Shown: piece after piece, positions 17,142-37,414 of the stretch
Layout of the letters: each line of letters starts with the position of its first letter
Position numbering within the stretch: position 1 is the stretch's first letter
Source: Oscillospiraceae bacterium
Lineage (GTDB): Bacteria > Bacillota > Clostridia > Oscillospirales > CAG-272
NCBI GenBank assembly: GCA_015065005.1
Contig: SVRE01000009.1
Coordinates: 1 to 45,783, forward strand
Direction of reading: 5' to 3'
Length of the DNA stretch: 45,783 nt
Program-made: the position numbers and the translations under genes
The notes under the pieces: generated by a model
The model's input: the letters and a program-made list of their open reading frames with translations, nothing else
Told to the model about the DNA's origin: nothing
Databases searched by the model: none

Positions 17142-19277
17142 ATGGACTTTAACACCCCCGTAAAGGAACTATACGGTGTAGGCGAAAAAATTGAGAAATA
17201 TCTACACTCCGGCGGACTTTTTACCGTCAAAGACCTGATTTATCACCTGCCGAGAGCATATCAAAACAGGGGAGATATCAGAAGCATTGACGATATTTCC
17301 GCATACAATGAATTTCACTCCTATATACTGACAATTGCAAGCGAGCCAAAGGTGGCAATGATAAGGCGCGGAATGAATATAATGAAGCTGCGCGCATTTG
17401 ATGAAACGGGCGTTGTCAACATAACATACTTTAACCAGAATTACCTAAGGGATGTTTTCACTGTTGGCTCTACCTTCAGATTTTGGGGCAGAATTACACA
17501 GGAAAAGCGAACCCTGTGTATGAATTCGCCATCTTATGAGCCTGTTTTACAAACACGTGCTCTTGCTCCACTTGTTCCCGTTTACCCTCTTTTTTCGGGG
17601 CTGAACCAAAAGTTTTTAGCCAAGCTGATTGGTGAGGCTGTTGGTTGCCTGCCGTCATTTTTGGTTGACTACCTGCCTAACGATGTAAGGCTTAAAAACG
17701 AACTATGCACCCTTGGCTATGCGCTGAAAAACATCCATATGCCCGAAAGCGAAGCATCTCTTAATGCCGCAATTAAAAGGCTGACCTTTGATGAGCTTTT
17801 TATATTCGCCCTGTCTCTTTCCAAAATGAAAACGGTACAAAAAACGAAAACCGCACCTGTCATAATGGATACGGACGTGTCCCCGCTTTTGTCTCTGCTT
17901 TCATACACACCAACCAACGCACAAATGAAGGCTATACGTGAAATTTCCCTTGATATTTGTCCACAGGGTGCCACTTTTTCCTGTGTTCCTATGAACAGAA
18001 TAGTTGTTGGTGACGTTGGTAGCGGTAAAACGCTTTGTGCCGCCGCTGCCGCCTATATGGTATGTAAAAACGGTTATCAATGCGCTTTGATGGCGCCCAC
18101 TGAAATATTGGCATTTCAGCATTATGAATCCCTTTTTCCTCTGTTTGAAAAGCTTAATATTTCTTGTGAGCTTTTAACAGGCTCAACCCCTGCAAAAGCC
18201 AAAAGAGAGACACTCTCCCGCCTAAAATCAGGAAAAACCAAGCTGATTATAGGTACACACGCCTTGATACAGGACAGTGTGGAGTTTGAAAGCCTTGCCC
18301 TTGCCATCACAGATGAGCAGCACCGTTTTGGCGCTAAGCAGCGCGCCACCTTAAGCGAAAAGGGAATGAGCGCCCATACTCTTGTAATGAGCGCAACCCC
18401 AATACCGAGAACCCTTTCATTTATGATTTACGGTGACCTTGACATTTCCTTGATTGATGAAATGCCGCCTAACAGAAAGCGTGTTTCAACCTACGTTGTT
18501 GATGAGGGATACAGGGCGCGCTTGAACGCTTTTATTAAAAAGCAGGTTGATGAGGGACACCAGGTTTACATTGTTTGTCCTACGGTTGAAGAAAAGCGGG
18601 AGGATATGGACAATGTTTCCGACTATGACCCGTTTTCTCTTGCCTTGGAGGACAACCAGCCACCCCTGAAGGCGGCGGTTGAATACGCCGAGGATTTGCA
18701 GACAAATGTTTTTCCCGAATTAAATATTGCCTTTATCCACGGAAAGCTAAAGCCCAAGGAAAAGGACAAAATAATGATGGAATTTGCAAACGGAAGCATT
18801 AACGTGCTTGTTTCCACAACGGTAATTGAGGTTGGAGTTAATGTACCTAATGCCACACTTATGATTGTTGAAAACGCTGAGCGGTTCGGGCTTTCACAGC
18901 TACACCAGCTGCGTGGACGTGTTGGACGTGGCAACGCACAATCCTACTGTGTGCTTGTTTCCGACAGCAAGGGCGAAAAATCAAAGGAGCGCTTGAACAT
19001 AATGAGGACTATTTATGACGGCTACACAATTGCCGAGCGTGACTTACAAATGCGCGGCCCCGGTGATTTTTTTGCAAGCGGCTCCTCAATCCGCCAATCG
19101 GGTGATATGGGCCTTGGCATTGCCAAAAGCTGTAGTGATACAGAGCTTGTACATTCTGCCTTTGAAGCTGCAAGGCTTGTCCTTGAAAAAGACCCCTATT
19201 TAACCGAGGAAAAGCACAAAAGCCTTAAAGCAGAGCTTGAAAAAACCATTAATGAAAAATCAAGCACGATAAATTAA
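17142..19277 (+). CDS. recG: ATP-dependent DNA helicase RecG
   Basis: 711 residues, slightly longer than typical (about 680). RecG is a superfamily-2 helicase that remodels stalled forks and branched DNA. The wedge/OB-fold region covers residues of about 1-190 (YGVGEKIEKYL, DLIYHLPRAYQNR). Helicase motifs are Walker A GDVGSGKT (290-297), DEQH (391-394) followed by RFG, SATPIPRTL (417-425), VSTTVIEVGVNVP and QLHQLRGRVGRG, all intact. The start is ATG after AAAGGAGAG. Upstream is a hairpin-rich tandem array and downstream a large palindromic block, both of which could be substrates for branched-DNA processing, though the adjacency may be chance. No clear promoter was found between the array and the gene; a TACAAT lies about 30 bp upstream without a good -35. 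Confidence 0.97.
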   Translation: MDFNTPVKELYGVGEKIEKYLHSGGLFTVKDLIYHLPRAYQNRGDIRSIDDISAYNEFHSYILTIASEPKVAMIRRGMNIMKLRAFDETGVVNITYFNQNYLRDVFTVGSTFRFWGRITQEKRTLCMNSPSYEPVLQTRALAPLVPVYPLFSGLNQKFLAKLIGEAVGCLPSFLVDYLPNDVRLKNELCTLGYALKNIHMPESEASLNAAIKRLTFDELFIFALSLSKMKTVQKTKTAPVIMDTDVSPLLSLLSYTPTNAQMKAIREISLDICPQGATFSCVPMNRIVVGDVGSGKTLCAAAAAYMVCKNGYQCALMAPTEILAFQHYESLFPLFEKLNISCELLTGSTPAKAKRETLSRLKSGKTKLIIGTHALIQDSVEFESLALAITDEQHRFGAKQRATLSEKGMSAHTLVMSATPIPRTLSFMIYGDLDISLIDEMPPNRKRVSTYVVDEGYRARLNAFIKKQVDEGHQVYIVCPTVEEKREDMDNVSDYDPFSLALEDNQPPLKAAVEYAEDLQTNVFPELNIAFIHGKLKPKEKDKIMMEFANGSINVLVSTTVIEVGVNVPNATLMIVENAERFGLSQLHQLRGRVGRGNAQSYCVLVSDSKGEKSKERLNIMRTIYDGYTIAERDLQMRGPGDFFASGSSIRQSGDMGLGIAKSCSDTELVHSAFEAARLVLEKDPYLTEEKHKSLKAELEKTINEKSSTIN

Positions 19278-19364
19278 ACTCATTTGCAAGGTATATAAAA
19301 AGGAGTACGGACTTGGCGTGATACTCTTATCGGAGTATCACGCCAGTTCTATTCGCCTGTGGCG

Positions 19365-19518
19365 AGTGATATTGCTATGCAGTGATATTCGGCTCGCGTC
19401 GAGTGGTATTCGCTTCGCGAGTTTGGTGGCGAATAGAATACCACTGAAGCCGCAAGGCTTCAATATCACTATTGCGGTAGCAATAATATCACTCTTTGCG
19501 AAAGCAAAGAATATCACT
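19365..19518 (+). repeat. Concentric stem with side hairpins (left half of the element)
   Basis: Left arms at 19365-19373, 19381-19389 and 19402-19410 pair with right arms at 19485-19493, 19462-19470 and 19437-19445. The innermost pair is AGTGGTATT/AATACCACT, a matched change relative to AGTGATATT/AATATCACT, which supports real pairing. Side hairpins on the right are GAAGCC-GCAA-GGCTTC (19446-19461), ATTGC-GGTA-GCAAT (19471-19484) and CTTTGC-GAAA-GCAAAG (19494-19509). On the left they are shorter, for example CGGC-TCGC-GTCG (19390-19401) and CGC-TTC-GCG (19411-19419). Confidence 0.85.
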
Positions 19519-19532
19519 AAAAAAGCAGAAAA

Positions 19533-19588
19533 AGAGAGAGAGCTTCACGGAATTTTGTAACCGCGTTACTCTCTCTTCTGTTTTTGTT
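19533..19588 (+). terminator. Possible recG terminator within the structured block
   Basis: AGAGAGAG (19533-19540) can pair with CTCTCTCT (19569-19576) around a long internal loop, followed by TCTGTTTTTG. The loop is large, so this is weaker than the other terminators in the window. A second small hairpin, TACACC-TTTT-GGTGTA (19720-19736), lies further on. Confidence 0.35.
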
Positions 19589-19992
19589 GCAAGTTTCGCA
19601 TTCATTTAACAAATGCACAGGGCTATGCCCATACCCCTTATAAAATTTCTCCGATAAGGACATCACCGATTTTGTCCGTGCTCCTTTTTACACTCCTTGC
19701 CCTGCAAGGTATAGTGTGTTACACCTTTTTGGTGTAGTGTCGGGTGGCAAAGCTTCTTAGTGATATGCCTCGCACAGCTCGGCGTGATATTTTTGCTTCG
19801 CAAAAGTGATATTGCGGCCCGTTAGTCGCAGTGATATTCTATCCGCCTCTGTTGCTTCAAACGCACGTAGCGCACATCACTACCAAAGACAATATCACGC
19901 AGGTCGTGCATATCACTCACCAGAGGCGAATAGAGTTGGCGCACCTGCTGTATCGCAGGTGCGCCATTCGCAAGCTCTTTTTATTTTAATGC

Positions 19993-22900
19993 TTAATCAG
20001 TGTACAGCTCCCAATTACTGTTCCATCTTGAAACCTCTTTCAATGCGTCTTCCTCATTCATTTCGTATTCAACTAAGAAGTTATTCTTTCCGGAATAATA
20101 TGAATTGCCTTGAACATTGTTCAAAAGGCCGTTCCAGCCATCCATATAGCCTACGTCATAAATAACTCCCGGGAAGATATATTCCTCAAGCATTTCCTTG
20201 CTCTCATAAGCGTTGCCGTAATAAAGCTTACTTAAAAGGGTTTGGTTATATGCCCTCATAATATATTCCTGACCTGTGTAGGAAAGAACCTCGAAGAAAT
20301 ACTCGGACATTTCACTGTCATCGGTTGCTTTTGGAATACACATAACGACTGCCTGATATGATGTTGGGGTATAATACATAGCTTGGTCAGTGTCAAGCTT
20401 TGGCATTGGAAGAATTGCAGGCTTGAAGTCGCTTGTAAAGCCACCAAAGGTATCTAACTTTTGCACAACCTCATTGTAGAACAAAAGTCTGCCGCCCTCA
20501 AATGCCTTTCCCATAGCGTCAAAGCCACCGTCCCAATTAAGCCTTGCCCAGCCTGCACTGTTTATTGTCAAAAGCTTATCAATAAGGGTGTTTACCTTTG
20601 TGTCATTCAAGGATAATACGTACTTATCACCCTTTACGGATACCTGCTTAATACCGCTGTACTGATAAAACTTTGCAAGTGCGGTTGTACCAAAGCCGTA
20701 TATACCGTTATCACCGTTTTGTGTGCCGTTTCCGTCTGTTACAAGCTTAGCAACATTTATCATCTGGTCAATTGTCCATTTTCCCTCTCTTACCATTTGG
20801 TAAAGATCCGGGAAGTTTTCAATTTCATCCGCCATTGCCTGGTTATAGTACAAAACGCCGGATGTTTGCTCATCAAGGAAGCTGAAGTCACCTGCGGCAA
20901 AGAGTGTAACACCCTTCAAGGTATAAGCCTCACGTGCGGCTTGGCTGTAATATGATGCATCAAGGTTAATATACTCACTCTTGGAAATATCGTAAACAAC
21001 ATTTGCCTTAACAAGGTTTTGCACCTCAAGCATACGTGGCATTGCAATATGATATACTATATCTCCACCGCCGCCAATAATAGCATCGCTAAGCAAGGTT
21101 GCTATCTGGTTGCCGCGAGCATTGATCCAGTTAATCTCTACCCCGTATTCCTTTTTAATGAACTCTTCTCTTTCGATAACTGAGCTGCTTATAACATTGC
21201 TATAGTTCATAGTCGAGTAGTTTCCATTATGAATTACAAGCTCAACCTGTGACCAAGGTGCGCCCGGATTCGGTGAATTCCAGGTTGTTGCAAGAACATT
21301 TAAGGTTTGACCGTTCCATTTGCTTGTAGGGTCCGGCTCTTCATCGGGATTGCCTGAATCCTCAATTTTCAGCCATTTTGCATAAATATCAACATCTCCC
21401 GTAACACTTGGGTCAATCTCTATTATCTCAACGTCAAATTCTTCATCAATATACCAACCCTCGAACAAATATCCGTCCCTTGTCGGAGACATAAGTGAGA
21501 ACGTTTCATCAAAGGATGAATACTCCTGTGGATTTGGGTTTTCAATGCCATCCATATTATGGTATGTTATGGTGTAGTAAACCGCAAGGTCCATATAATC
21601 ATATCCACCGCACACTGCGCATTGACGGATTGCATATCCGGGCAGCTCATCATCCTCATACCAGGAGCCCCACAAATGCTCACACATTTCGTACTCCATT
21701 TCAAAGCTCTCGGTGTCGGGATAAAGGGTGAATGTAAGCTTCAGCGGGATTTCATCGTCATAGAAATAATATATTTGCTCTGTTGTCAGTTCTATTTCAT
21801 ATCCGTCAAAGCTACCAACTGTGGGCACGGCAACTATCGCTTCAACCATACCCGAGCCCTGTACAACCTGATATGCCACAAGGTATATTGATCCATCCTC
21901 TTCAATCACAACAGATAGCACAAGACCGTCATCGGAATAGAAGCTCTTGTCAAATACGTTTGCTATTTCATCCTTATCGGTTGGAGCATAAACCGGGTAG
22001 TTATCCTCTGAAATTTCAACCAATGCAAAGGTAAGTGTAACGGAAATAGAGGATACGTCATTTTTGCCCTTTACCTCAGACGGAGTTGTAATTGTAAGTC
22101 CAACATTTGTTTCCGCTGTAATTGTCTTGATTTTGAAAATGCCCGTAAACTCAATGTCAAGCTTGCTGTCCATCTTGTCAACCTCTATGGATTGAGCCAA
22201 AAGCACCAGGATTTCAAATGGGTTACCTGTATCCGTCTCGAACTCAGCCAAGGTCATATCAAGGAACATTTCAATTGTAGCTATAAGCTCTTCAGCGGAA
22301 GGAATTTCGCTGCTTGAGCTTGAAACGAGGATTACACCGTCATCCTCTTCTTCCTGTGCTGTAAGTATCTCTACAATTATATCGTAGATTTTTACATCCA
22401 TCATTTCTTCAGGAATCAGGTCGGATAGCTTGCTTTCCAAAAGCATGTCTATCATTTCCTGTATTTCCTCCTCAGTTGCCTCAGGAGTTACAGAAAGCAT
22501 AATTTCAGCTATTATCATTTGTACCGCTTCATTGGAAATAGCGGAGCTGTAAATTTCCTCAAGGGTCATACCGTACTCAGCCAAAAGCTGCTCATCCAAG
22601 GCAGCCAGGTATTCGCTGAGAGTCATGTCGTAAACAGCCTCTATATTTGCCAAATAGCTCTCAACAGTAAGCTCACTGTCAACAAATGAAAGCATACCGT
22701 TGATAAATTCTCTCAATGTTGTCGCTTCAAGATCAATAGACTTAAGGTATTCAAGGGGTTTATCAAGCTCAGGCTTAAAGTCAATATATGAGCCGCCCTT
22801 GTTGTTGGCAATGCCAAAGCCCTCTATCAAAAGATTTCCAAGCTCGCCAAGAATACCGTTTATGGCTTCCTCGCTCAAGCCTGCTTCCTCTATCAAGGAT

Positions 22901-23628
22901 TGGAGTATGCCCTCAAGCTTTGTTGTGTCAATTGTAGGAGTATTACTTACCAGATATACATCAAGCGCTTCATTGTATTCATACACAACACCGTCAACAA
23001 TGTAAAGCACGCCGCCATTCAAGTCGGACAAAAGCTCACCGTTATCTGTATCTCTTGAGCTAACATCTGCCTCAACCTTTAAATTATATCCGTTTTCAGT
23101 TTTTGAAATGTACGCTGTAAAATCGGCAATACCTTCAAAATATGTTTTCTCGTTCTTTGCCCAGCCGTCTATATACCATTCGTTACTGTTCAAAACAATA
23201 TCCATGCCAAACTCAAGCTTCAGGGTTGATGCCGCCTCAAGCTGATTCATAACGGCCTGTGTAAGAATAAATCCTGTTGAAATACCGCTATCTCCGCCAG
23301 GGTTATCGTTTCCTGTGCCATCGCCTGTATTGCCGCCAGGGTTATTGTTTCCTGTGCCATCACCTGTATTGCCACCCTGGTTTTCTCCGCCTGTGTTACC
23401 GCCCGGGTTTTCATCATCAGGCTTTTCATCACTCGGCTTGCTCTCCGGGGTGCTTGAATCCGTAGTGCCCTCGCCATCTGTGCTTGGCTTGCTTGAATCG
23501 GTTGTACTGCTGTTTTCAGTACCGTTGGTTACGCTACTGTCCGTAGAGCTTGGCGTTTCCTCATCATTGCAGGCAACTAATGAAAGTGCAACCAAAATTG
23601 CCATTAAAACCAATAAAAATTTCTTCAT
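19993..23628 (-). CDS. Giant lipoprotein with InlB-type repeat and C-terminal solute-binding domain
   Basis: 1211 residues. The lipoprotein signal has lipobox LVAC with Cys20. A Ser/Thr/Gly/Pro-rich linker follows (about 21-115), part of it encoded by 39-bp repeats (GGNTGDGTGNDNPGG type). The middle region, about 115-640, is a large acidic domain I do not recognise. Then come a CEHLWGSW...CAVCG stretch (about 650-680), one InlB/Listeria-Bacteroides repeat (about 684-754) and an extracellular solute-binding domain (about 771-1211; NVLATTWNSPNPGAPWSQVEL, FAAGDFSFLDEQTSGVLYYNQ). It starts after AAGGAGGAAAAT, 39 bp downstream of the membrane regulator gene, so the two are likely co-transcribed. 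No permease lies nearby. The binding domain is paralogous to that of the protein at 26348-30073. It may act as a surface binding or sensing protein rather than a transporter subunit. Confidence 0.85.
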   Translation of the reverse strand: MKKFLLVLMAILVALSLVACNDEETPSSTDSSVTNGTENSSTTDSSKPSTDGEGTTDSSTPESKPSDEKPDDENPGGNTGGENQGGNTGDGTGNNNPGGNTGDGTGNDNPGGDSGISTGFILTQAVMNQLEAASTLKLEFGMDIVLNSNEWYIDGWAKNEKTYFEGIADFTAYISKTENGYNLKVEADVSSRDTDNGELLSDLNGGVLYIVDGVVYEYNEALDVYLVSNTPTIDTTKLEGILQSLIEEAGLSEEAINGILGELGNLLIEGFGIANNKGGSYIDFKPELDKPLEYLKSIDLEATTLREFINGMLSFVDSELTVESYLANIEAVYDMTLSEYLAALDEQLLAEYGMTLEEIYSSAISNEAVQMIIAEIMLSVTPEATEEEIQEMIDMLLESKLSDLIPEEMMDVKIYDIIVEILTAQEEEDDGVILVSSSSSEIPSAEELIATIEMFLDMTLAEFETDTGNPFEILVLLAQSIEVDKMDSKLDIEFTGIFKIKTITAETNVGLTITTPSEVKGKNDVSSISVTLTFALVEISEDNYPVYAPTDKDEIANVFDKSFYSDDGLVLSVVIEEDGSIYLVAYQVVQGSGMVEAIVAVPTVGSFDGYEIELTTEQIYYFYDDEIPLKLTFTLYPDTESFEMEYEMCEHLWGSWYEDDELPGYAIRQCAVCGGYDYMDLAVYYTITYHNMDGIENPNPQEYSSFDETFSLMSPTRDGYLFEGWYIDEEFDVEIIEIDPSVTGDVDIYAKWLKIEDSGNPDEEPDPTSKWNGQTLNVLATTWNSPNPGAPWSQVELVIHNGNYSTMNYSNVISSSVIEREEFIKKEYGVEINWINARGNQIATLLSDAIIGGGGDIVYHIAMPRMLEVQNLVKANVVYDISKSEYINLDASYYSQAAREAYTLKGVTLFAAGDFSFLDEQTSGVLYYNQAMADEIENFPDLYQMVREGKWTIDQMINVAKLVTDGNGTQNGDNGIYGFGTTALAKFYQYSGIKQVSVKGDKYVLSLNDTKVNTLIDKLLTINSAGWARLNWDGGFDAMGKAFEGGRLLFYNEVVQKLDTFGGFTSDFKPAILPMPKLDTDQAMYYTPTSYQAVVMCIPKATDDSEMSEYFFEVLSYTGQEYIMRAYNQTLLSKLYYGNAYESKEMLEEYIFPGVIYDVGYMDGWNGLLNNVQGNSYYSGKNNFLVEYEMNEEDALKEVSRWNSNWELYTD
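23296..23373 (-). repeat. 39-bp coding repeat in the lipoprotein linker
   Basis: GCCAGGGTTATCGTTTCCTG at 23296 recurs with two differences at 23335, a 39-bp period, and a decayed third unit follows. It encodes the Gly/Asn/Pro-rich stalk between the lipid anchor and the first folded domain of the 1211-residue lipoprotein. Confidence 0.75.
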
Positions 23629-23667
23629 ATTTTCCTCCTTATAATGTTTCCAAGTTATCCCGCAAGG

Positions 23668-26004
23668 TTAGGGTACGGGATATTCTGTTATTTCTACATT
23701 TTCACAGCCCTCAAAGGCGCTGCTATCTATTCTGTCTGTCACACGTCCGTACAGCCTGACGGTAGTAAGCTCAGTGCAATTTGCAAAGGAACGGTAGCTT
23801 ATTACATTCACATCCCCACGAAACTCTACATATGTAAGGGACCTGCAGTTGCAAAACGCCATATTTCCTATATCAATAATATCATGCTCAAAGGTTACTT
23901 GCTTAAGGCTGTAGCAATCGTAAAACGCCCTTGCCTCCACATAATTCAAGCTGCCGCCGAAATTAATTGTTGTAAGCTCTACGCAAAACTCAAAGGCTGA
24001 TTTACGAACCACGCCAACACTGTCGGGAAAATATACCTCTTTAAGATATATGCTGCCGAAAAATGCATTTTCCTCTATGATATTTGTTCCCTCAGGTACG
24101 CGATAGGCATCTGTATAGCTGCCTATGGGGTATTTTATAAGATTTGTCCTCTCTTTATTATACAAAGCCCCCTCAATGTGACAGTATCTTGCATTGTTAT
24201 CATCAACCCAAAACTCGCGAATACAGCCAAAGGACAAAAATGCCTTTGTGCTTATACTGTTCACGCCTGCAGGAATCTTAAGCATTTCAAGACCGCGCAA
24301 GCCGTAAAGCGTATTTTCCCCTATGGTTGTAATTCCGCTTGGAAGCTGTAGGCTTTTTAATGTGTCATTATACAGCTCCAAATTACTAAAAGCAAAATCT
24401 CTTATTTCAGTAACTCTGTCACCGTTATAATATTCTGGAATTACAAGTGATGTATCATTGCCCGTGTACTTTTCCAAAACACAGGTGCCGTTTCCTCGGC
24501 TGGTAAAATAAAGCCCGTCATTGTTACTCCATATTGCATAAAGAGTTGTGTTTTTATCAAAGGTAACGGTTTGCCCTATTCCGTAATTTCTTTGACCCTG
24601 TGGGGATTTGCTCCAGCCGATAAGACCCTTTTCGTCATACGGAGTTGTCAGGGTGTAGCTTCCACCCTTGGTAATATATACCTTATATTTTTCCGAGCTT
24701 TTATTGTTTGTATCAAAGGTTATGGAAACTGTGTTTTTCGGCGCCCACACCGCATAAAGAGTTATGCTTTCTTCAAAGAACGCCTTTTCGTAAGCCTTGT
24801 ATTCCACAGCGCCGCCCGGCTTTATCGCCCAGCCCAGGGCTGTTTTCTCGGAATCGGTAAACATATCCCCTAAAACAAGCTGGTCCCTTGGGTCAATGCG
24901 AACCGATTCGGTTGTTCCGCTACCGTCATTTTTATCAAATGTAACGGTTATTGTATTGTCCTTCATCCAAACCGCGTAAAGGGTAATGCTTTTAGTAACC
25001 GCATTTTCAGCAAAGCTCCACTCCTCAAAGGTTTCCATATCAACCCAGCCGAGAAGAATGTAGCCTTCTCTTTCTACCTTTGGTACAGTAACAAAGCCGC
25101 CCTCCTTAATTTGTACATTTCCAACAGACGGTACTCCGTCTGCAACAAAGCTGACTGTATAATAAGTTCCATCCGTTATGTCAGGGCTTTGGTTATTATC
25201 TTGGCTACTGTCCGTATTGCCGCTACTGCTTGCCGTGCTATCGTTTCCACCCTGCTCCGCATCACTGCCGCTTGTCGGGTTATCGTTTCCGCTTTCTTTC
25301 GTATCGCTTCCTCCCGTGCCGCTTACCCCGGTGTCAGGAGTGCTGCTTGCTTGACTTCCGCTTGTGCCTGTGCTTGGTCCAAAATCAACATTATTCAAAT
25401 AATATGTAATCAACACAAGCAAGGTTACAGACAAAGCAAGTGTCAAGGCAACGCTGGCAATAATTCCAATCAAAAGCGCGCGTTTTCCGCTTTTGACCGA
25501 ATTATCATTTTTCGTAAGCTCTTTTTCTTCGTTAATGTTATCTACTCTGTTATCCCTTATTTCGCAGCCTACGTTTTTTTCACAACCGATTTCATCTTGC
25601 ACAGCTTTTTCCGCTTCCGCATCCACACTCTGCTCTATAATATCGCTTTCACTTGTCGGCTGATTTTCGGAATTTTCATTCTCTTCATTAATTAAGATAG
25701 TCTCTGCCTTATCGGGAACATTTACAACCGCCATCGTGTCAGCCTGCCCCTTGTCATCAACAAAGGGGGCATCAGCCACAGGGGTGTCGGATATGATTGT
25801 TATATCGAGCTCATCATCCAAAAGCTCGTTAAAGGAAATTTCAAAAAGCTTGGAAATCTTCTTCAGCTTATCAATTTCGGGTTGGCTGATTCCTGCCTCC
25901 CACTTATAAACCGCTTGCCGCGAAACCTCAAGCTTTCCCGCAAGCTGCTCCTGGCTCCAGCCCTTCCTTTTCCTTAGATATGTTATTTTTTCTGATAGCT
26001 CCAT
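23668..26004 (-). CDS. Membrane-anchored XRE regulator with InlB-repeat and LRR ectodomain
   Basis: 778 residues. Residues 1-65 are an XRE helix-turn-helix (ITYLRKRKGWSQEQLAGKLEVSRQ ... VYKWEAGISQPE, shortened). A charged linker runs to about 174. One membrane segment lies at about 175-203 (ALLIGIIASVALTLALSVTL), preceded by KSGKR, so the DNA-binding part is cytoplasmic. Outside are a Ser/Gly/Asp-rich stalk (208-275), three InlB-type repeats (about 281-347, 350-421, 424-492; each ends LYAVW or LYAIW) and BspA-type LRRs from about 498 to the end. This architecture suggests a one-component transmembrane regulator whose ectodomain binds a surface ligand and whose HTH controls nearby genes, possibly by proteolytic release or by clustering. 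That is inference. It has its own promoter and a palindromic candidate operator. Confidence 0.88.
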   Translation of the reverse strand: MELSEKITYLRKRKGWSQEQLAGKLEVSRQAVYKWEAGISQPEIDKLKKISKLFEISFNELLDDELDITIISDTPVADAPFVDDKGQADTMAVVNVPDKAETILINEENENSENQPTSESDIIEQSVDAEAEKAVQDEIGCEKNVGCEIRDNRVDNINEEKELTKNDNSVKSGKRALLIGIIASVALTLALSVTLLVLITYYLNNVDFGPSTGTSGSQASSTPDTGVSGTGGSDTKESGNDNPTSGSDAEQGGNDSTASSSGNTDSSQDNNQSPDITDGTYYTVSFVADGVPSVGNVQIKEGGFVTVPKVEREGYILLGWVDMETFEEWSFAENAVTKSITLYAVWMKDNTITVTFDKNDGSGTTESVRIDPRDQLVLGDMFTDSEKTALGWAIKPGGAVEYKAYEKAFFEESITLYAVWAPKNTVSITFDTNNKSSEKYKVYITKGGSYTLTTPYDEKGLIGWSKSPQGQRNYGIGQTVTFDKNTTLYAIWSNNDGLYFTSRGNGTCVLEKYTGNDTSLVIPEYYNGDRVTEIRDFAFSNLELYNDTLKSLQLPSGITTIGENTLYGLRGLEMLKIPAGVNSISTKAFLSFGCIREFWVDDNNARYCHIEGALYNKERTNLIKYPIGSYTDAYRVPEGTNIIEENAFFGSIYLKEVYFPDSVGVVRKSAFEFCVELTTINFGGSLNYVEARAFYDCYSLKQVTFEHDIIDIGNMAFCNCRSLTYVEFRGDVNVISYRSFANCTELTTVRLYGRVTDRIDSSAFEGCENVEITEYPVP

Positions 26005-26032
26005 TTGCTTCTCCTAAATCTATTCTGTCTAA

Positions 26033-26061
26033 ATTGTACCACAAAAGAACAAATTAGTCAA
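26033..26061 (-). promoter_or_regulatory. Promoter of the membrane XRE regulator gene
   Basis: Minus-strand TTGACT (26056-26061), 17-bp spacer, TACAAT (26033-26038), giving a leader of about 20 nt with the ribosome site AGGAGAAG. Confidence 0.65.
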
Positions 26062-26066
26062 TAAAC

Positions 26067-26081
26067 CATTGTTTACCAATG
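26067..26081. promoter_or_regulatory. Candidate operator upstream of the XRE regulator gene
   Basis: CATTG-TTTAC-CAATG, a 15-bp inverted repeat with 5-bp arms, starts 5 bp upstream of the -35 box. XRE regulators usually bind short dyads, so autoregulation is plausible. The rest of 26082-26292 is AT-rich with nothing I recognise. Confidence 0.4.
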
Positions 26082-26292
26082 TCAACCTGCGGTTTACATT
26101 TAACATTTTTCCGTAAAAATTAACCACTCCACGCGCTTTTTTCACAATTTTGGTTTTTGATCGTTTTCAAACACGTATCGACATGTTTTTTTAAAATTAT
26201 AGCATAAATCAATCAAATTTGCATTAATTTGGGATAAATTTGTTGCATTTTGGGATTAAACGGATGCTATTTTTCCTTTTGCTTTGCAAAAC

Positions 26293-26324
26293 AAAAAACA
26301 GGTTGAATTTTCAACCTGTTTTTT
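26293..26324 (-). terminator. Terminator of the 1241-residue lipoprotein gene
   Basis: AAAAAACAGGTTGA (26293-26306) pairs with TCAACCTGTTTTTT (26311-26324), 4-nt loop. The minus-strand U-tract is the complement of the A-run. It lies 24 bp past the stop codon and isolates the lipoprotein gene from the regulator gene. Confidence 0.88.
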
Positions 26325-26347
26325 GTAATTTTGTTTTTGCTTGAAGG

Positions 26348-29300
26348 CTACTCCGTATACAGCTCCCAGTTTTTGTTCCACTTGTCAACAACCTCCGTTG
26401 CATCCTTTTCGGCAATGCCATAGGATTCTGTGAAGTTGTTTTTGCCAAAGGAATATGATTCCGTCTGTACATCCGATAGCAAGCCGTTCCAGCCATCCAT
26501 ATATCCTACATCATACAGTATGTTTGGAAAGATATAATCTTCAATTATCTCCATGCTTTCAGCAAATGTTTCATAATTGAGCTTAGATCTAAGATTATCC
26601 TTATACGCTTTCATAACATACTTTTGGCCTGTGTAGGAAAGAATTTCAAAGAAGTACTCGGACATTTCTCTATCCATTGTAGCCTTTGGAATGCACATAA
26701 GCACGCTCAGATATGAGCACGGTGCGCAATAACTCTGTTGAGCTTCGTTAAGCTTTGGCATTGGAAGAACGCCAACCTTAAATTCTTCGTCTTGGATATC
26801 AAAATAATCCGCTCTCTCCATCACCTCACTGTAGAACAAAAGCCTACCCTCTCTAAATGCAAGTTCCGCTGCGCCATAAGCGCCATCCCATTTTGTTCTT
26901 GCCCAATCAGCAGCATTGATAGCCACCAGCTTGTCAACAAGGGTGTTTACATTGGCATCATTTAATGATAATACATATTTTCCATCCGCTACGGACGCCT
27001 GCTTAATGCCGCTGTACTGATAAAACTTTGCAAGTGATGTTGTACCAAAGCCGTATGTATCGTCATCTGTCCACTCAGGCGCACCTACGTTTTTCTTAAC
27101 GAGCTTAGCAATATTTGTCATCTGGTCAATTGTCCATTTGCCCTCCCTTACCATTTGATAAAGGTCAGGGAAATTTTCAATTTCCTCTGCTATAGCCTGG
27201 TTGTAGTAAAGCACATAAGATGTCGACTCATCAAGGAAGCTGAAGTCACCTGCAGCAAAAAGTGTAACGCCATTTATTGTATATGCCTCTCTTGCTGCCT
27301 GATTATAGTAAGAAGCGTCAAGGTTTATGTACTTACTCTTGGAAATATCGTAAATAGAGTTTGTCGCAACAATTGCTTGCGCTTCCAGCATACGTGGCAT
27401 AGCAATGTGATAGCTTGTTGCCTCGCTTCCGCTAACCATAGCATCGGAAAGAATATTAGCAATCATTGTTCCGCGGGCATTTACCCATTCAAGCTCAACA
27501 CCGTATGCAGCCTTAATAAAGTTTTCTCTTGTGATTACCGCATTGTTAATTAAAGTACCGAAGCCTGTGTCTGTGTTAAAGTATTCAGGCCTTACTGTCA
27601 ACTCAACCTGTGACCAGGGAGCACTCGGATCAGCGGAGTTATTCCACGTTGTAGCAAGAATTCTTAATTTTTCACCGCTCCAATCTCTCAAAGTTTCGGG
27701 TACATAGTTACCTTCTGCATCAGGCTTTGATTTTTCAATCCATTTAGCATACAGCTCTATATCTCCTGTTGTTCCGGCGGTTATTTCCGTAACCTCATTA
27801 TTATAATATTTGTCACTGTACCAGCCGTCAAAAAAGCAACCTTCCTTTGTAGCCTCGGTTAATATAAAGCTATCTTCCTCTGTATATTCGCTTCTGTTAC
27901 TGTGTGTTGCACCATCTACATTATAATAGTATATATTATGCCATTTTTTTACAGGATCAGCAGTCGGAGGAACTCTTACAAATGCTATTTCTTCCCAAAA
28001 ATCCTCGCCTTGGCTGCATATTGGCATTACAATTTGTACCTTAGTGATTTTTCTTGTATTATCAACCTCACAGTATGGAATTACTCTGTTTTCCACATCT
28101 TCATTTTGAGCATGATTCAAGAATGAGCCTGTACCAACAATTGTGTAGTCGCTATCGCCCTCATACTGAACATATGTATAAAAGCCTGAGCCTGCACCGT
28201 GACCCTTAACATAAATTCTGTCCATTGTGCTTGGTGTTGCAAGATCAATTATCACCTTAACCTCGCAAGCATTTCCGGTGAAAACCTGATAGTTTTGGTG
28301 GTCCCAAACACCGTCAATTAAGCAAAGTAAGCGGTCGGTGCCCCAGCCTGCGTACATTTGAAGTGACACTTGATTCCTCGGTATTTTGCCAAGAGTTGAA
28401 AGTGTAATGTTTTCAAGTTCCTGATATTGCTCATAGCCACAGCCGGAAACCTTGCATCTACGTTCTCTGCAGAGGAAGCCTTCATCCCAAGGTCCGTAAT
28501 CGTGACCTGTTGCAGGGCTGCCTGTCATCGTGCTTTCGGCGTTACAGATTGTGCAGAACCGTGCTTTAACGCCTTTCTTTGTACAGGTTGGTGCTACTGT
28601 TTCCTCCCAACCAGACCATGTGTGGTCATAGGAGCCGTCAGCACACTGTGGCACCGTTATCCAACAAGAATAAAGCTCTGTGTCGGCAATATACAAATCA
28701 GAGGGTGAAGCCAACCTTGTATATTCAGTATCTTTGTACCATCCTATAAACTCGTACTTAGGGTCATCACTTATCGGAATTGGAAGACTGCCTTCAAAAA
28801 AGCCATTCTTCTCAACCTGATATGTGTATTTATTGTTCTCAAAGTAGCCAACACCTGTGTCGAACTTAACTGTTACTGTTTCCTTTTCAGTATCGGTTCC
28901 GTCACCTGTACCACCATCGCCACCCGAGTCAACCTTTTGCCAAATAGCATAAAGGGTTGTGTCCTGGGTAAACCTTTCAGCAGGATCCCACTCAGTTTCA
29001 CCGGTTCCGTCATAAGACCAGTAAGAAAATTCATATCCTTCTCTTTCAACTATAGGCAACTTGCTTTCAGAAAGCTTTGAGCCCTTGTTGATTTCTATCT
29101 CAAAATCACCGTCAACAATTGTACCCCTATTTGGACTAAATGTAATTTCTACTTTTTCAATCACAGGCTCATATACTGCATTTACGGCAATGTCCCGTAA
29201 AGAAAGCTCGTAGCTTTCCCACTTACCGATATAACCATCCTTGGTTGGAACCGGCGGAACATCAAAGTCACTTGATTCAACAGTAAATTCAACCTCGCCA

Positions 29301-30073
29301 ACAGTTACTCCGTCTGCTATGAAGGTTAGCTTATATACTATAATTTCATACTCGGCATTTACTGTCATATTTTCTGCACCAAGCTCATAGCTCTGCCACT
29401 TGCCTGCATAGCCTTCCTTTTCGGGCACCTTTGGCTCGATAATTCTCTCGCTGTCCAAAGTAAAGTCAGCCCAACCAACCACATCACCGTCTGCAACGAA
29501 GGTTATTTTGTATGAAATCGGTGTCCACATAGCCTCAAGGGTAACATCATTTTCAACCACTTTGCTGTTGAAATCCCATTTTGTGCCATCACAATACCAT
29601 CCATCAAAGGTATACCCCTGTCTTTGCGGTGCTTGTGGCTCTGTTACCCTTTCACCGTCAGGCACTGTCTGGTCCTCTATCACGGTTTCACAACTGGATA
29701 CAAATGTAACTGTAAACTTCAAGGCTTTTTCCCATCCTGCATAAAGGGTGGTTTCTTCGTCCTTATACAGCTTACCGTTTGAAACAAGCTCTGTACATTC
29801 CTTATCTAAATACCAGCCTGTAAATAAGTATCCTTCCCTTGTAGGTGTAGGGTGCTTGTAATATACTTCACCCATTTCAACCTCTGCATTCCATTCGCCG
29901 TCAGAAAGCAAGCCTTGACCCGGGTCATAGTGGATCATTGCCTTCTTATTCTCCTGCTGCGAGCTTGGGGTTGTTCCGCCACCTAACATGCTGTTAACAT
30001 CACATGAAAAGAGAGAGGCCGAAAGCACAAGCATGACAAGCATACCTGCAAGCAAAAGTAATCTTTTTCTCAT
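26348..30073 (-). CDS. Giant lipoprotein with seven InlB-type repeats, discoidin-like and solute-binding domains
   Basis: 1241 residues from the start chosen here. Two ATGs lie in MTMRKR; AGGAGG is only 1 nt before the first and 7 nt before the second, so the second (30071-30073) is taken. Lipobox LFSC with Cys24. About six InlB/Listeria-Bacteroides repeats follow (each with GY.F.GWY and ending LYAGW, LEAMW, LYAIW or similar). Then come a His/Cys stretch (HTWSGWEETVAPTC ... CTIC ... CGY), a discoidin/F5-8-like beta domain (LSTLGKIPRNQVSLQMYAGW ... IDLATPSTMDRIYVKG, shortened), a seventh repeat (ending LYAKW), and a C-terminal solute-binding domain of about 440 residues. That domain is closely similar to the end of the 1211-residue protein. 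It has its own consensus promoter and terminator. No permease is adjacent, so transport is not assured; surface glycan binding is the safest guess. Confidence 0.87.
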   Translation of the reverse strand: MRKRLLLLAGMLVMLVLSASLFSCDVNSMLGGGTTPSSQQENKKAMIHYDPGQGLLSDGEWNAEVEMGEVYYKHPTPTREGYLFTGWYLDKECTELVSNGKLYKDEETTLYAGWEKALKFTVTFVSSCETVIEDQTVPDGERVTEPQAPQRQGYTFDGWYCDGTKWDFNSKVVENDVTLEAMWTPISYKITFVADGDVVGWADFTLDSERIIEPKVPEKEGYAGKWQSYELGAENMTVNAEYEIIVYKLTFIADGVTVGEVEFTVESSDFDVPPVPTKDGYIGKWESYELSLRDIAVNAVYEPVIEKVEITFSPNRGTIVDGDFEIEINKGSKLSESKLPIVEREGYEFSYWSYDGTGETEWDPAERFTQDTTLYAIWQKVDSGGDGGTGDGTDTEKETVTVKFDTGVGYFENNKYTYQVEKNGFFEGSLPIPISDDPKYEFIGWYKDTEYTRLASPSDLYIADTELYSCWITVPQCADGSYDHTWSGWEETVAPTCTKKGVKARFCTICNAESTMTGSPATGHDYGPWDEGFLCRERRCKVSGCGYEQYQELENITLSTLGKIPRNQVSLQMYAGWGTDRLLCLIDGVWDHQNYQVFTGNACEVKVIIDLATPSTMDRIYVKGHGAGSGFYTYVQYEGDSDYTIVGTGSFLNHAQNEDVENRVIPYCEVDNTRKITKVQIVMPICSQGEDFWEEIAFVRVPPTADPVKKWHNIYYYNVDGATHSNRSEYTEEDSFILTEATKEGCFFDGWYSDKYYNNEVTEITAGTTGDIELYAKWIEKSKPDAEGNYVPETLRDWSGEKLRILATTWNNSADPSAPWSQVELTVRPEYFNTDTGFGTLINNAVITRENFIKAAYGVELEWVNARGTMIANILSDAMVSGSEATSYHIAMPRMLEAQAIVATNSIYDISKSKYINLDASYYNQAAREAYTINGVTLFAAGDFSFLDESTSYVLYYNQAIAEEIENFPDLYQMVREGKWTIDQMTNIAKLVKKNVGAPEWTDDDTYGFGTTSLAKFYQYSGIKQASVADGKYVLSLNDANVNTLVDKLVAINAADWARTKWDGAYGAAELAFREGRLLFYSEVMERADYFDIQDEEFKVGVLPMPKLNEAQQSYCAPCSYLSVLMCIPKATMDREMSEYFFEILSYTGQKYVMKAYKDNLRSKLNYETFAESMEIIEDYIFPNILYDVGYMDGWNGLLSDVQTESYSFGKNNFTESYGIAEKDATEVVDKWNKNWELYTE

Positions 30074-30109
30074 GGTCATTCCTCCTAAAATGTTGATTTT
30101 GCTAACTCA

Positions 30110-35095: not shown

Positions 35096-37414
35096 ATGAT
35101 TTTTAACTATTTTGCTGCCATCGACATTTTCAATCTCAGCTTAGTTGGATGCGGTATTGTTTTTGGCGTGGCTTTAGTTTTGCTCATTATGTTCATGGCT
35201 ATTCAATGCAAGGTTACTTACATTGACAACGAGGATGGAAAGAGCGTAATTCACAAGGAGACACATCCATGGCTTGCCAAGGTTGATATCCACAGCGCAA
35301 ACAAAACCGGAAAAAGGCTTGTCGGTTGGAGCACCACTCCTGACGGAAAAACACCGCTTACCAAACACAGGGTGGTTCTTTTCCATTCCATAAAGCTTTA
35401 TGCTATTTGGGCAAACGCAGTTGTACCACAGGCTGTTCCCGTTACAGTTGCAGAAGCACCGGTTGCATTTACCGATGTTGATTACAAGCACGGTATATTC
35501 GTTAAGTTCAATTACATCAATCCGCAGACTGATGAAATTATTACAAGCGAGGGCTTCAAGCTTAATGCAGTTGTTCCTCAAGAGAATGTTGACGGATGGG
35601 CGCTTGAGCCAAACGGTTCAATACTCTTAAAGGACGGAACTGAAACTCACGTGTTCAACATCGACCTTTACCCTGTTAGTGCGCTTGCTGACAGCGGTTA
35701 TGTTGCTCCAACAAAAATATTCACAGGAAAGAGCGTTGTTGACCTTTCTTACACTATATCCGGTACAGACACAGTTGTTTACAAGGAATCTCACTATGTC
35801 ACACTTAAGCTTCCTATGAGCTCTCGTTTTGATAGAAAGTTCATTGGTTGGAGCACCATGGCTGACGGTGATGCTACTATTGAAAGAACTGATGTTGACT
35901 GTGTATTCAACATTCCTTTATTCTCTATCGGTGACGTTGCTGAGCAAGAACCGGTTGTTGAGGAAGCTCCTGTTGTTGAAGAGGTTGTTGAAGAGGTTGT
36001 CGAGGAAGTAGTTGAAGAAGTTGTCGAAGAGACTGTTGAGAAAGTAGTTGAGGAGACTGTCGAAGAAGTTGTTGAGGAAGTAGTTGAAGAAGCTGCAGAA
36101 AAGCCTCTTTACGAAGAAGTTATCGAAGAATACGCTCCACAGCATGAGGGAACAGTTGAAGAGGTTGTTGAAGAGGTTGTTGAAGAGGTTGCTCCTGTTG
36201 AAGAGGTTGCTTCTGTTGAAGAACCTGCTCCGGTTATTGAAGAGCCTGCCGAACCTGTTCTTGTTCCTACATATTACGATAACGAAGGCAACAAAATTGA
36301 TATTAAGTATAGCCGTAGCTTTACAGCAAACCTCATCCAAAGCGATGACACGGTAAAGGATTACTACAGTGAGCTTAAAAATCATATCCTTTCATACAAG
36401 GGAGTTAAATCCAGAATCAGTTGGAAGTTTGATAGCTACAACAGAGGTAGAGATCAGCTCTTTAAGATCAAACTCCGCGGTAAGACAATTTGCTTGTACT
36501 GTGCGCTTGATCCAAATGAATTTGACCAATCCAAATATCATCACGAGGCAATCGATGCTAAGATATTTGAGGACGTTCCGATGCTTGTTAAGATTAAGAG
36601 CGGTCTCGGTCTCAGAAAAGCAAAAGAGCTTGTTGATTTCGTAATGGCAAGATTCGAAATTGAAAAGGATGAGAAAGCAAAGGTTATTGACTATGTTAAG
36701 GAAAATCCTTACGAGCCAAACGAACCACTTATTGCTCGAGGACTTATAAAAGCCCTTATTGCAGATGATGCTGTTGTTGTTATGTCCTCCAAGCCAAAGG
36801 AAGAGGTTGTTGAAGCAGCTCCCGTGGTGGAAGAGGTTGTGGTTGAAGAGCCTGTAGCCGAAGAGGTTGTTGCCAAGGAGCCTGCAGCTGAAGAGGTTGT
36901 AGTCGAAGAGCCTGTAGCCGAAGAGGTTGTAGTCGAAGAGCCTGTAGCCGAAGAGGTTGTAGTCGAAGAGCCTGTAATCGAAGAACCTGCAGCTGAAGAG
37001 GTTGTGGTTGAAGAGGTTGTGGTTGAAGAAACTCCTGCTGAAGAACCATATATTGAGCCTGAGGTTGTGGTAGAAAGCGTAAGCGCTGAAGAAGCACACC
37101 AGATTATTGAGGAAAAGCATATTGAGGTTCACATTGAAGAAGGTGTTGATTACATCAATGCAGGTGACAGCAAGAAGGCTATTGTAAACATCGACACACT
37201 TTCTAAGAACTATAATGCAGGTGATATTGTTACAATCCAATCAATGAAGGACAAAAAGCTCATTGAAAAGAAGGCGAAATGCGTTAAAGTTCTTGCAAGG
37301 GGCGTTCTTGATAAACCACTTAGAATTATGGCGGGTGAGTTCTCCGGAACTGCTGTTGAAATGATTCTTTTGACAGGCGGTCAAGCAATGCACGTTGAAT
37401 ACAAAATTAAATAA
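35096..37414 (+). CDS. Membrane-anchored acidic-repeat protein with C-terminal uL15-like domain
   Basis: 772 residues. One membrane segment (about 12-37) is near the N-terminus. It is followed by about three InlB-like units (about 41-105, 125-200, 205-275; LVGWSTTPDG ... LYAIW), a Glu/Val repeat region (about 280-395, VEEVVEE), a conserved alpha/beta domain (about 405-500; SRSFTANLIQSDDTVKDYYS, ISWKFDSYNRGRDQLFKI) and a second acidic repeat region (about 565-660, EEVVVEEPVA, 30-bp DNA units at 36841-36990). The last 80 residues (VNIDTLSKNYNAGDIVT ... AKCVKVLARGVLDKPLRI) resemble the C-terminal half of ribosomal protein uL15. The middle domain is one I recall as widespread in Clostridia proteins of unknown function. 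Start: ATG after AAAGGCGG. Sidedness and function are unknown; a membrane-ribosome tether is one speculation. Confidence 0.85.
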   Translation: MIFNYFAAIDIFNLSLVGCGIVFGVALVLLIMFMAIQCKVTYIDNEDGKSVIHKETHPWLAKVDIHSANKTGKRLVGWSTTPDGKTPLTKHRVVLFHSIKLYAIWANAVVPQAVPVTVAEAPVAFTDVDYKHGIFVKFNYINPQTDEIITSEGFKLNAVVPQENVDGWALEPNGSILLKDGTETHVFNIDLYPVSALADSGYVAPTKIFTGKSVVDLSYTISGTDTVVYKESHYVTLKLPMSSRFDRKFIGWSTMADGDATIERTDVDCVFNIPLFSIGDVAEQEPVVEEAPVVEEVVEEVVEEVVEEVVEETVEKVVEETVEEVVEEVVEEAAEKPLYEEVIEEYAPQHEGTVEEVVEEVVEEVAPVEEVASVEEPAPVIEEPAEPVLVPTYYDNEGNKIDIKYSRSFTANLIQSDDTVKDYYSELKNHILSYKGVKSRISWKFDSYNRGRDQLFKIKLRGKTICLYCALDPNEFDQSKYHHEAIDAKIFEDVPMLVKIKSGLGLRKAKELVDFVMARFEIEKDEKAKVIDYVKENPYEPNEPLIARGLIKALIADDAVVVMSSKPKEEVVEAAPVVEEVVVEEPVAEEVVAKEPAAEEVVVEEPVAEEVVVEEPVAEEVVVEEPVIEEPAAEEVVVEEVVVEETPAEEPYIEPEVVVESVSAEEAHQIIEEKHIEVHIEEGVDYINAGDSKKAIVNIDTLSKNYNAGDIVTIQSMKDKKLIEKKAKCVKVLARGVLDKPLRIMAGEFSGTAVEMILLTGGQAMHVEYKIK
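36841..36990 (+). repeat. 30-bp coding minisatellite
   Basis: Five consecutive 30-bp units of the type AGTCGAAGAGCCTGTAGCCG plus AAGAGGTTGT encode a ten-residue acidic repeat. Two adjacent units are identical, showing recent expansion in frame. Confidence 0.85.

Follow-up and report, generated by a model that had tools for sequence, protein, structure and literature searches.

The closest published precedent for the elements described below is the pair IS1272 and TnSha1 of the IS1182 family. They use the IS1182 transposase and are described as targeting hairpins regardless of sequence, several of them confirmed terminators, with deletion of part of the hairpin and no target duplication; TnSha1 also carries a passenger gene (PMC4923244). 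ISPsy8 is reported to insert at the symmetry axis of palindromes, with a direct repeat of three bases (PMC1525189). The pneumococcal BOX, RUP and SPRITE are small folded repeats that can insert into one another, BOX being modular and SPRITE resembling a terminator (PMC3049150, PMC10969869). The intervening sequence of 23S rRNA is a selfish element of about 430 nt located in a helix of its target RNA gene and having complementary borders; in Coxiella it lies in helix 45 of the 23S rRNA, and according to one cited view the intervening-sequence protein served mobility (PMC4990558).

The locus studied here belongs to a window of 45,783 nucleotides (the whole stretch of DNA analysed) from an Oscillospiraceae genome, and occupies the gap between recG and a convergent gene. 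A sequence-only reading had treated positions 19314-19966 as one 650-bp palindrome. In a DNA search of the same genome with this region, the matched pieces differed in extent (query 3-376, 356-653 and many shorter) and therefore the region consists of two joined units. These are two related dispersed elements in opposite orientation, E1 and E2, with E1 inside E2, made up and flanked as follows.

17142 to 19277, plus strand: recG, recognised by Pfam RecG_wedge and helicase domains; its 3' end adjoins the left terminator arm
19297 to 19312, plus strand: left half of the putative split terminator, an A-tract and the stem arm GGAGTACGGAC, 3' of recG (from sequence and stem pairing)
19314 to 19667, plus strand: E1 as a whole, from left-end hairpin to right end
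19314 to 19345, plus strand: E1 left-end hairpin, TGGCGTGATACTC-TTATCG-GAGTATCACGCCA (from sequence, copies and the hairpin pattern in other genomes)
19345 to 19518, plus strand: E1 nested-arm array with hairpins between the arms (from sequence, copies and shuffle comparison)
19345-19353, 19365-19373, 19381-19389 and 19402-19410, plus strand: E1 forward arms
19437-19445, 19462-19470, 19485-19493 and 19510-19518, plus strand: E1 reverse arms
19526 to 19585, plus strand: E1 internal terminator-like hairpin with T-tract (from sequence)
19649 to 19667, plus strand: E1 right end, CTCCGATAAGGACATCACC, partly complementary to the left end
19674 to 19689, plus strand: right half of the putative split terminator, GTCCGTGCTCC and a T-tract (from sequence and copies)
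19670 to 19966, minus strand: E2, with its 5' end at 19966 and its internal terminator-like hairpin interrupted by E1
19759 to 19917, minus strand: E2 nested-arm array (from sequence)
19937 to 19966, minus strand: E2 left-end hairpin, TGGCGCACCTGC-GATACA-GCAGGTGCGCCA (from sequence)
19993 to 23628, minus strand: 1211-aa protein with a List_Bact_rpt domain, the convergent neighbour, whose 3' end adjoins E2

The TGGCG...CGCCA hairpins previously noted at both ends of the region are indeed present. A 17-nt outer stem had also been proposed to close the whole; its complementarity is real, but no single unit is closed by it. The pairing results from the like beginnings of E1 and E2, which face opposite ways, each start being a hairpin followed by (G/A)(T/C)TCTATTCGCC. 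The closing stem of E1 starts outside 19314-19966 and joins GGAGTACGGAC (19302-19312) to GTCCGTGCTCC (19674-19684) by ten Watson-Crick pairs and one T-G pair. Bounded by A5 and T5, it appears to be an intrinsic-terminator-like hairpin split by E1. Terminal inverted repeats of the MITE type are present, with 83% complementarity over 18 nt between the right end and a portion of the left-end hairpin. In the alignment of E1 copies, the internal terminator-like stem showed some two-sided changes. Folding is far stronger than for dinucleotide shuffles on either strand of the region, with z values of -13.9 and -16.0 (20 shuffles each), and no Rfam family matched at gathering score in the window. The left-end hairpins of L001 and L023 have the same stem with the loop found both ways (TTATCG or CGATAA), as if inverted. 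At three loci (L085, L086, L095) lone left-end hairpins cap terminator-like stems; these could be either a remnant of the element or its minimal version. As a separate feature of the window, 19993-30079 and 35096-37414 encode several very large proteins with List_Bact_rpt domains; BspA-type leucine-rich repeats together with an HTH domain occur in one protein there, and another matches Ribosomal_L27A close to its C-terminus.

E1 and E2 are, with a probability of about 0.8, members of a modular, non-autonomous mobile family that inserts into the loops of intrinsic terminators and in some members carries passenger genes. Dispersed copies, flanking stems specific to each site, nesting, passenger genes and the same cassette at unrelated sites were all observed, and they are described in turn.

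Copies outside the region, which the sequence-only reading had asked for at non-homologous sites, were abundant in the same genome and in related ones. Matches resembling E1 or E2 (E up to 1e-5) were obtained in 25 of 38 genomes searched, the source genome included, and within these 38 they fell in its own family and four other families of the order. In the source genome the copies lie at unrelated sites. Identity to E1 is 94-97% for the closest of them and reaches 100% over 98-116 bp for three more, incomplete copies located at contig ends. The genomes searched are draft assemblies, in which many copies are cut off where a contig ends. The left-end hairpin pattern with up to 2 mismatches was present in 28 of 57 genomes (reversed control, 0). 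The right-end pattern was found in 26 of 29 genomes of the genus with up to 3 mismatches (reversed control, one match each in 4). At a limit of 1 mismatch, the order as a whole gave 32 positive genomes of 394 and 25 positive genera of 168 (reversed control, none). An exact pattern scan of named genomes returned at least 115 stretches; among the 80 matches listed, 79 came from entries titled as Clostridia, Clostridiales or Oscillospiraceae MAGs and one from Prevotellaceae, and the animals named in the titles of the listed matches, where given, were ruminants. Carriage by phages or plasmids was not supported, the exact right-end pattern giving 0 matches in the viral_contigs collection and E1 no match in plasmids; one partial array match was obtained in an unverified faecal 'phage' scaffold. 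A non-autonomous mobile element, one of the options first offered for this region, is thus well supported by the non-homologous sites, the near-identical copies in one genome and a cassette common to two genomes.

In most printed copies the left side has an A-tract and a stem arm, the right side the complementary arm and a T-tract, and the host stem sequence differs from copy to copy with mostly nothing in common except these tracts. A search based on a stem finder yielded some false elements, very long and with A/T-rich stems, and its counts are no evidence. To avoid circularity, 92 elements with distinct left flanks were chosen on their end motifs: a left end of one of three types and a right end with up to 3 mismatches had to lie 200-1600 bp apart, and the stems played no part in the definition. 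Seven pairs among the 92 differ by no more than 5 mismatches over 24 nt of left flank, and their members are possibly not independent. The mean pairing energy of an element's own flanks was -22.3 kcal/mol versus -10.9 kcal/mol for mismatched flanks (Mann-Whitney p 2e-46). The own flank was the best partner in 50 of the 92 and among the top 5% in 76. A level of -12 kcal/mol was reached by 86 of 92 own pairs and by 36% of mismatched pairs, the six weaker elements being L137, L170, L204, L283, L299 and L314. Exact complements of 9 nt or longer, including at least three G/C, were found in 65 of 92 own pairs versus 100 of 8372 mismatched ones. Runs of four T were present in 82 right flanks and runs of four A in 79 left flanks. 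The E2 type was less clear: among five E2-like elements with both ends, the complement was 12 and 13 nt in two, 6 nt in one and none in two. In 89 of the 92, an open frame of at least 80 codons has its 3' end facing the element from one side or both, and in 56 from both (raw counts, with no random control), without an orientation bias (71 frames ending towards the element from the left, 74 from the right). At the junctions of 90 elements, short matches that could be target-site duplications were seen by eye in some copies only, and none read as a clean duplication.

The tpiA locus was compared in 29 genomes of the genus, 12 of the 29 printed stretches being without the 3' end of the gene. The tpiA terminator of G004 contains a 1055-bp element, and ordinary short terminators were found elsewhere (e.g. 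G013, G012, G016, G019), with stems that differ in sequence from that of G004. In G011 a lone left-end hairpin sits on the terminator stem, and in the source genome a hairpin like the E2 end is present.

The suspicion in the sequence-only reading that one element sits inside another is well supported, as E1 lies in the loop of the terminator-like hairpin of E2, and the second, degenerate array at 19759-19917 was confirmed as the nested-arm array of E2. No distal right end of E2 was recognisable within the window. In eight E2 copies without E1 (L004, L009, L013, L022, L025, L040, L041, L180) a related hairpin is intact and its loop just a few bases long, and in L039 and L299 its place is taken by a hairpin of other sequence. 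A motif scan for the E2 hairpin returned 41 rows, mostly unrelated. Inspected by eye, the left flanks of two more E1 copies in the source genome (L010, L011) also read as E2 sequence, and for this reason the E2 hairpin loop appears to have been used repeatedly as a landing site. The internal hairpin of one element would then serve as the target of another, which is how E1 may have come to lie in E2.

An alternative is that the flanking stem arrives with the element as a fast-changing terminal repeat, so that the terminator is acquired and not invaded. Fast divergence of a stem with its complementarity kept is conceivable, since by eye the stems of the left-end hairpin differ in this way between subfamilies. 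However, the stems of different copies mostly have only their A and T tracts in common, the eight E2 copies without E1 keep a related hairpin intact, and tpiA has an ordinary terminator in several element-free genomes, even though of different stem sequence; we therefore regard this alternative as unlikely. Under insertion into the loop, the host stem arms and the A and T tracts would be left on both sides of the element, which would add a further terminator of its own, the internal hairpin, and so the host gene would probably still terminate. The region had also been suggested to be a double-sided terminator. This holds in another sense, in that host terminator arms lie on both sides.

The nested organisation of the array was confirmed in the sequence, with concentric AGTGATATT/AATATCACT arms and hairpins in the gaps. 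Counting both strands, the window contains AGTGATATT 7 times, always in this region, versus 0.37 expected. The matched change of the innermost arms, AGTGGTATT/AATACCACT, is also present, but its interpretation as a sign of selection on pairing was not upheld. In the alignment of E1 copies (25 of 26 selected copies, L107 being left out and longer copies lying outside the selection), the innermost forward arm AGTGGTATT was found in 14 copies and its partner AATACCACT in only 3, and forward arms shifted to AGTTCTATT or AGTTATATT without a change of the partner. Within these 25 copies the compensatory arm changes looked for were absent: in the three concentric helices no pair was changed on both sides (94.5% paired cells with the arms forced), and the covariation score was equalled by 73 of 500 shuffles. 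The consensus fold of the copies contained the local hairpins and not the concentric arms, and two-sided changes were found in 11 of 63 pairs of the predicted local hairpins. Copying of arms within an element could give the same arm pattern as selection on concentric pairs.

The array itself is a general feature of the shorter elements. Among those under 520 bp, one 7-mer occurring at least twice per orientation and five times in all was found in 67 of 88, versus 9 of 1760 dinucleotide shuffles. Eight arm classes, assigned from a word list, were counted: AGTGATATT 27, AGTGAAGTT 26, TGAAATC 9, TCGATAT 8, GTTATGA 7, TGAATTG 7, GCGATAT 3 and GTGATGTT 1. Each of the three end types was combined with several arm classes and the family is therefore mosaic. 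Visual comparison of nine printed elements showed closely similar layouts across classes: outer stem, alternating arms and hairpins, the partner of the outer stem, then reverse arms with hairpins. This common layout with differing arm sequences holds between subfamilies only.

Strong folding, the layout common to eight arm classes and the position at gene 3' ends could also be explained if the host had a structured RNA or attenuator that is passed on vertically and kept because it functions at gene ends. We consider this very unlikely, given that the copies lie at unrelated sites, are near-identical within a genome, in some cases enclose unrelated passenger genes, are spread patchily over the order (32 of 394 genomes) and have no Rfam match. 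Structured RNA in the wider sense offered by the sequence-only reading is a possible property of the region, with its strong folding potential on one side and the lack of an Rfam match on the other.

Most stem-bounded rows of the named-genome set, 59 of 73, measure 295-440 bp (one element may count in both orientations). Eleven longer elements bounded by host stems contain open frames: L047, L159, L193, L217, L234, L246, L278, L285, L302, L310 and L329. Many longer elements share three parts: a promoter-like module containing a TATAAT-like box, a middle module and a terminator. Twenty open frames were found 3' of the middle module; that of L277 and the second of L305 start past the right end and were set aside, and the remaining 18 encode 16 different proteins (L345 and L302 have one in common, as do L246 and L382), with host-stem bounding seen for part of the 16. 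The Pfam scan covered 20 proteins, 19 of them distinct, including two from the doubtful L097 pair. Matches were to two GNAT acetyltransferases, a glyoxalase-like protein in the source genome, a P-loop kinase, DUF7660, an HTH domain and DUF559, several proteins having no match; the kinase lies beside a DUF559 nuclease. No transposase was found among the 19 distinct open-frame products scanned against Pfam. The barstar and ribonuclease genes of L097 were dropped as cargo, there being a complete terminator at the left boundary.

Shared cassettes were seen in two pairs of loci, the first pair being from two genomes. L246 and L219 have a 1211-bp cassette in common (90%) with unmatched flanks, one L219 flank being only about 140 nt long at a contig end, and L047 and L302 have a passenger and its surroundings in common (90% over 676 bp) with different host stems. 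Such cassettes at unlike sites are good evidence of movement between genomes. With a passenger gene behind the promoter-like module, some members would make the family act like dispersed gene cassettes. Integron gene cassettes are small, mostly single-gene units with diverse passengers. The present units are likewise small with diverse passengers, but unlike integron cassettes they have a common promoter-like module and each lies alone in a terminator.

An enzyme supplied in trans would presumably recognise the hairpin ends and the hairpin target. Five transposase families were tested as the mover, and each was absent from most of the 29 draft genomes of the genus: Y1 was found in 9 (one gene in the source genome), IS30 in 5 (4 over cut-off), rve in 10 (8 over cut-off; two genes in the source genome), DDE_Tnp_1 in 3 and the IS1182 transposase in 2 (1 over cut-off), the last not in the source genome (83% complete). 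The 18 Y1 loci contained neither an end hairpin nor an exact arm, and the exact end core was missing from all 17 rve and DDE_Tnp_1 loci. All five families are unsupported as the mover. Near a terminator, L417, the only full IS1182 copy, has 12-nt complementary arms on either side; a loop insertion was not supported there, a complete terminator lying between the left arm and the gene.

The REP/BIME-like organisation, with lone hairpins and compound arrays, and the single Y1 gene of the source genome could point to movement by a REP-type Y1 transposase, with the hairpins forming a REPIN-like family. Against this stand the restriction of Y1 to 9 of 29 genomes, the 18 Y1 loci without ends or exact arms, and the four genomes G003, G011, G015 and G018 (96-97% complete), which carry copies yet gave no Y1 match, so that this explanation is highly improbable.

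DUF559 nuclease genes are dispersed in 21 of the 29 genomes of the genus. They were rejected as the mover: 17 of 30 loci lacked the family end core even at one mismatch, and the exact core was present in three (L382, L391, L402). In the DUF559 loci printed (12 of L374-L403, e.g. L375, L388, L393), the flanks are by eye mostly CCTTCCCC/GGGGAAGG or CCTCC-type palindromes. DUF559 is treated here as a separate mobile family, short forms of which sometimes ride inside cassettes.

The partial match in the unverified faecal scaffold led to the observation of arrays next to genes for the 23S rRNA intervening-sequence protein (PF05635). A nested array lies directly upstream of six such genes, of which four (L037, L038, L423, L435) were found through the array and two (L424, L453) through the protein alone. 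The loci found through the protein alone number 18: L424; L425, L426 and L447-L452, which are 8 of 25 matching plasmid records; and the nine L453-L461 from the viral collection. The upstream sequences of L460 and L461 are identical, which leaves 17 distinct loci. L426 passes the inverted-word count, but with a tandem repeat of another kind, and the frame of L425 is interrupted by a stop. By eye, iterated inverted short repeats of the GCGGAAAG type accompany the PF05635 frame of L426 (Treponema), and repeats of the AATTAGGAATGAG type surround the interrupted frame of L425 (Monoglobus). Twenty further loci have E1-like arrays with no E1 left end in the matched range, and one of them (L435) contains a PF05635 gene. 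Fifteen of these 20, together with L034 and L035, were printed for inspection. No array start was recognised in L440, L445 and L446; by eye, a TAAGG loop on left hairpins of different stem was seen in several other printed array loci, and some array loci without the E1 left end also lie in terminator loops. Arrays placed after complete terminators beside apparent tRNA gene ends were noticed by eye in L037 (twice), L038, L423, L435, L436, L443 and L035. There was no PF05635 match at the E1 and E2 loci, and a viral scan with one intervening-sequence protein gave no relative.

It is possible, though doubtful, that the elements are moved by, or descended from, elements encoding a PF05635 protein that acts on hairpin loops. 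The array stands directly before six PF05635 genes, two of them reached through the protein, and rRNA intervening sequences too are described as sitting in an rRNA helix with complementary borders (PMC4990558). However, only 2 of the 17 distinct protein-found loci have the array, none of the 92 element loci encodes PF05635, and the PF05635 gene of L435 carries an in-frame stop. The protein is the best candidate for a mover at hand, and a candidate only. Slightly more doubtful is the wider proposal that the four-helix-bundle intervening-sequence protein, or a partner enzyme, would read the nested arrays and insert cassettes into hairpin loops, as a distinct cassette system of gut Clostridia with terminators and rRNA helix loops as its natural targets. 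If this were true, the intervening-sequence protein would gain a function and the movement of rRNA intervening sequences would become testable.

Compared with the published systems, the family recalls IS1272 and TnSha1 in its insertion into terminator hairpins, seen here in flank pairing, exact complements and gene ends, and TnSha1 in the passenger genes of some elements. These elements remove part of the hairpin; here complementary stem arms flank most copies, although a few bases of the hairpin may have been lost; the IS1182 transposase that belongs to them occurs in 2 of 29 genomes of the present genus and not in the source genome; and the nested hairpin array has no counterpart in the published description as far as it goes (PMC4923244). 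Insertion at the centre of a palindrome is common to ISPsy8 and the present family, but the ISPsy8 target is one repeated REP family whereas here it is terminators generally, and the REP-targeting elements, ISPsy8 and others, are insertion sequences, unlike the present ones (PMC1525189). Like BOX, RUP and SPRITE, the elements are small, folded, interspersed and nesting, and like BOX they are modular; neither a position in host terminator loops nor passenger genes are described for those repeats in the accounts at hand (PMC3049150, PMC10969869), and the present family has both. Intervening sequences target rRNA, are excised from the transcript by RNase III and encode the S23 protein (PMC4990558). 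E1 and E2 encode no such protein; their place is between recG and a protein gene, and that of the examined elements at the ends of open frames, not in a 23S rRNA gene. In the literature searched, most subscription papers being outside its scope, no description of a family joining terminator-loop insertion, nested arrays and passenger cassettes was recognised.

The terminator-loop site breaks no gene and keeps the host arms, so the modular mobile family proposed here could increase in number and transport genes at low cost. The family is widespread in a genus where five ordinary transposase families are scarce. Its enzyme, if found, might prove to be a recombinase recognising the shape of hairpins, and a possible connection with PF05635 would bear on the old question of how rRNA intervening sequences move.
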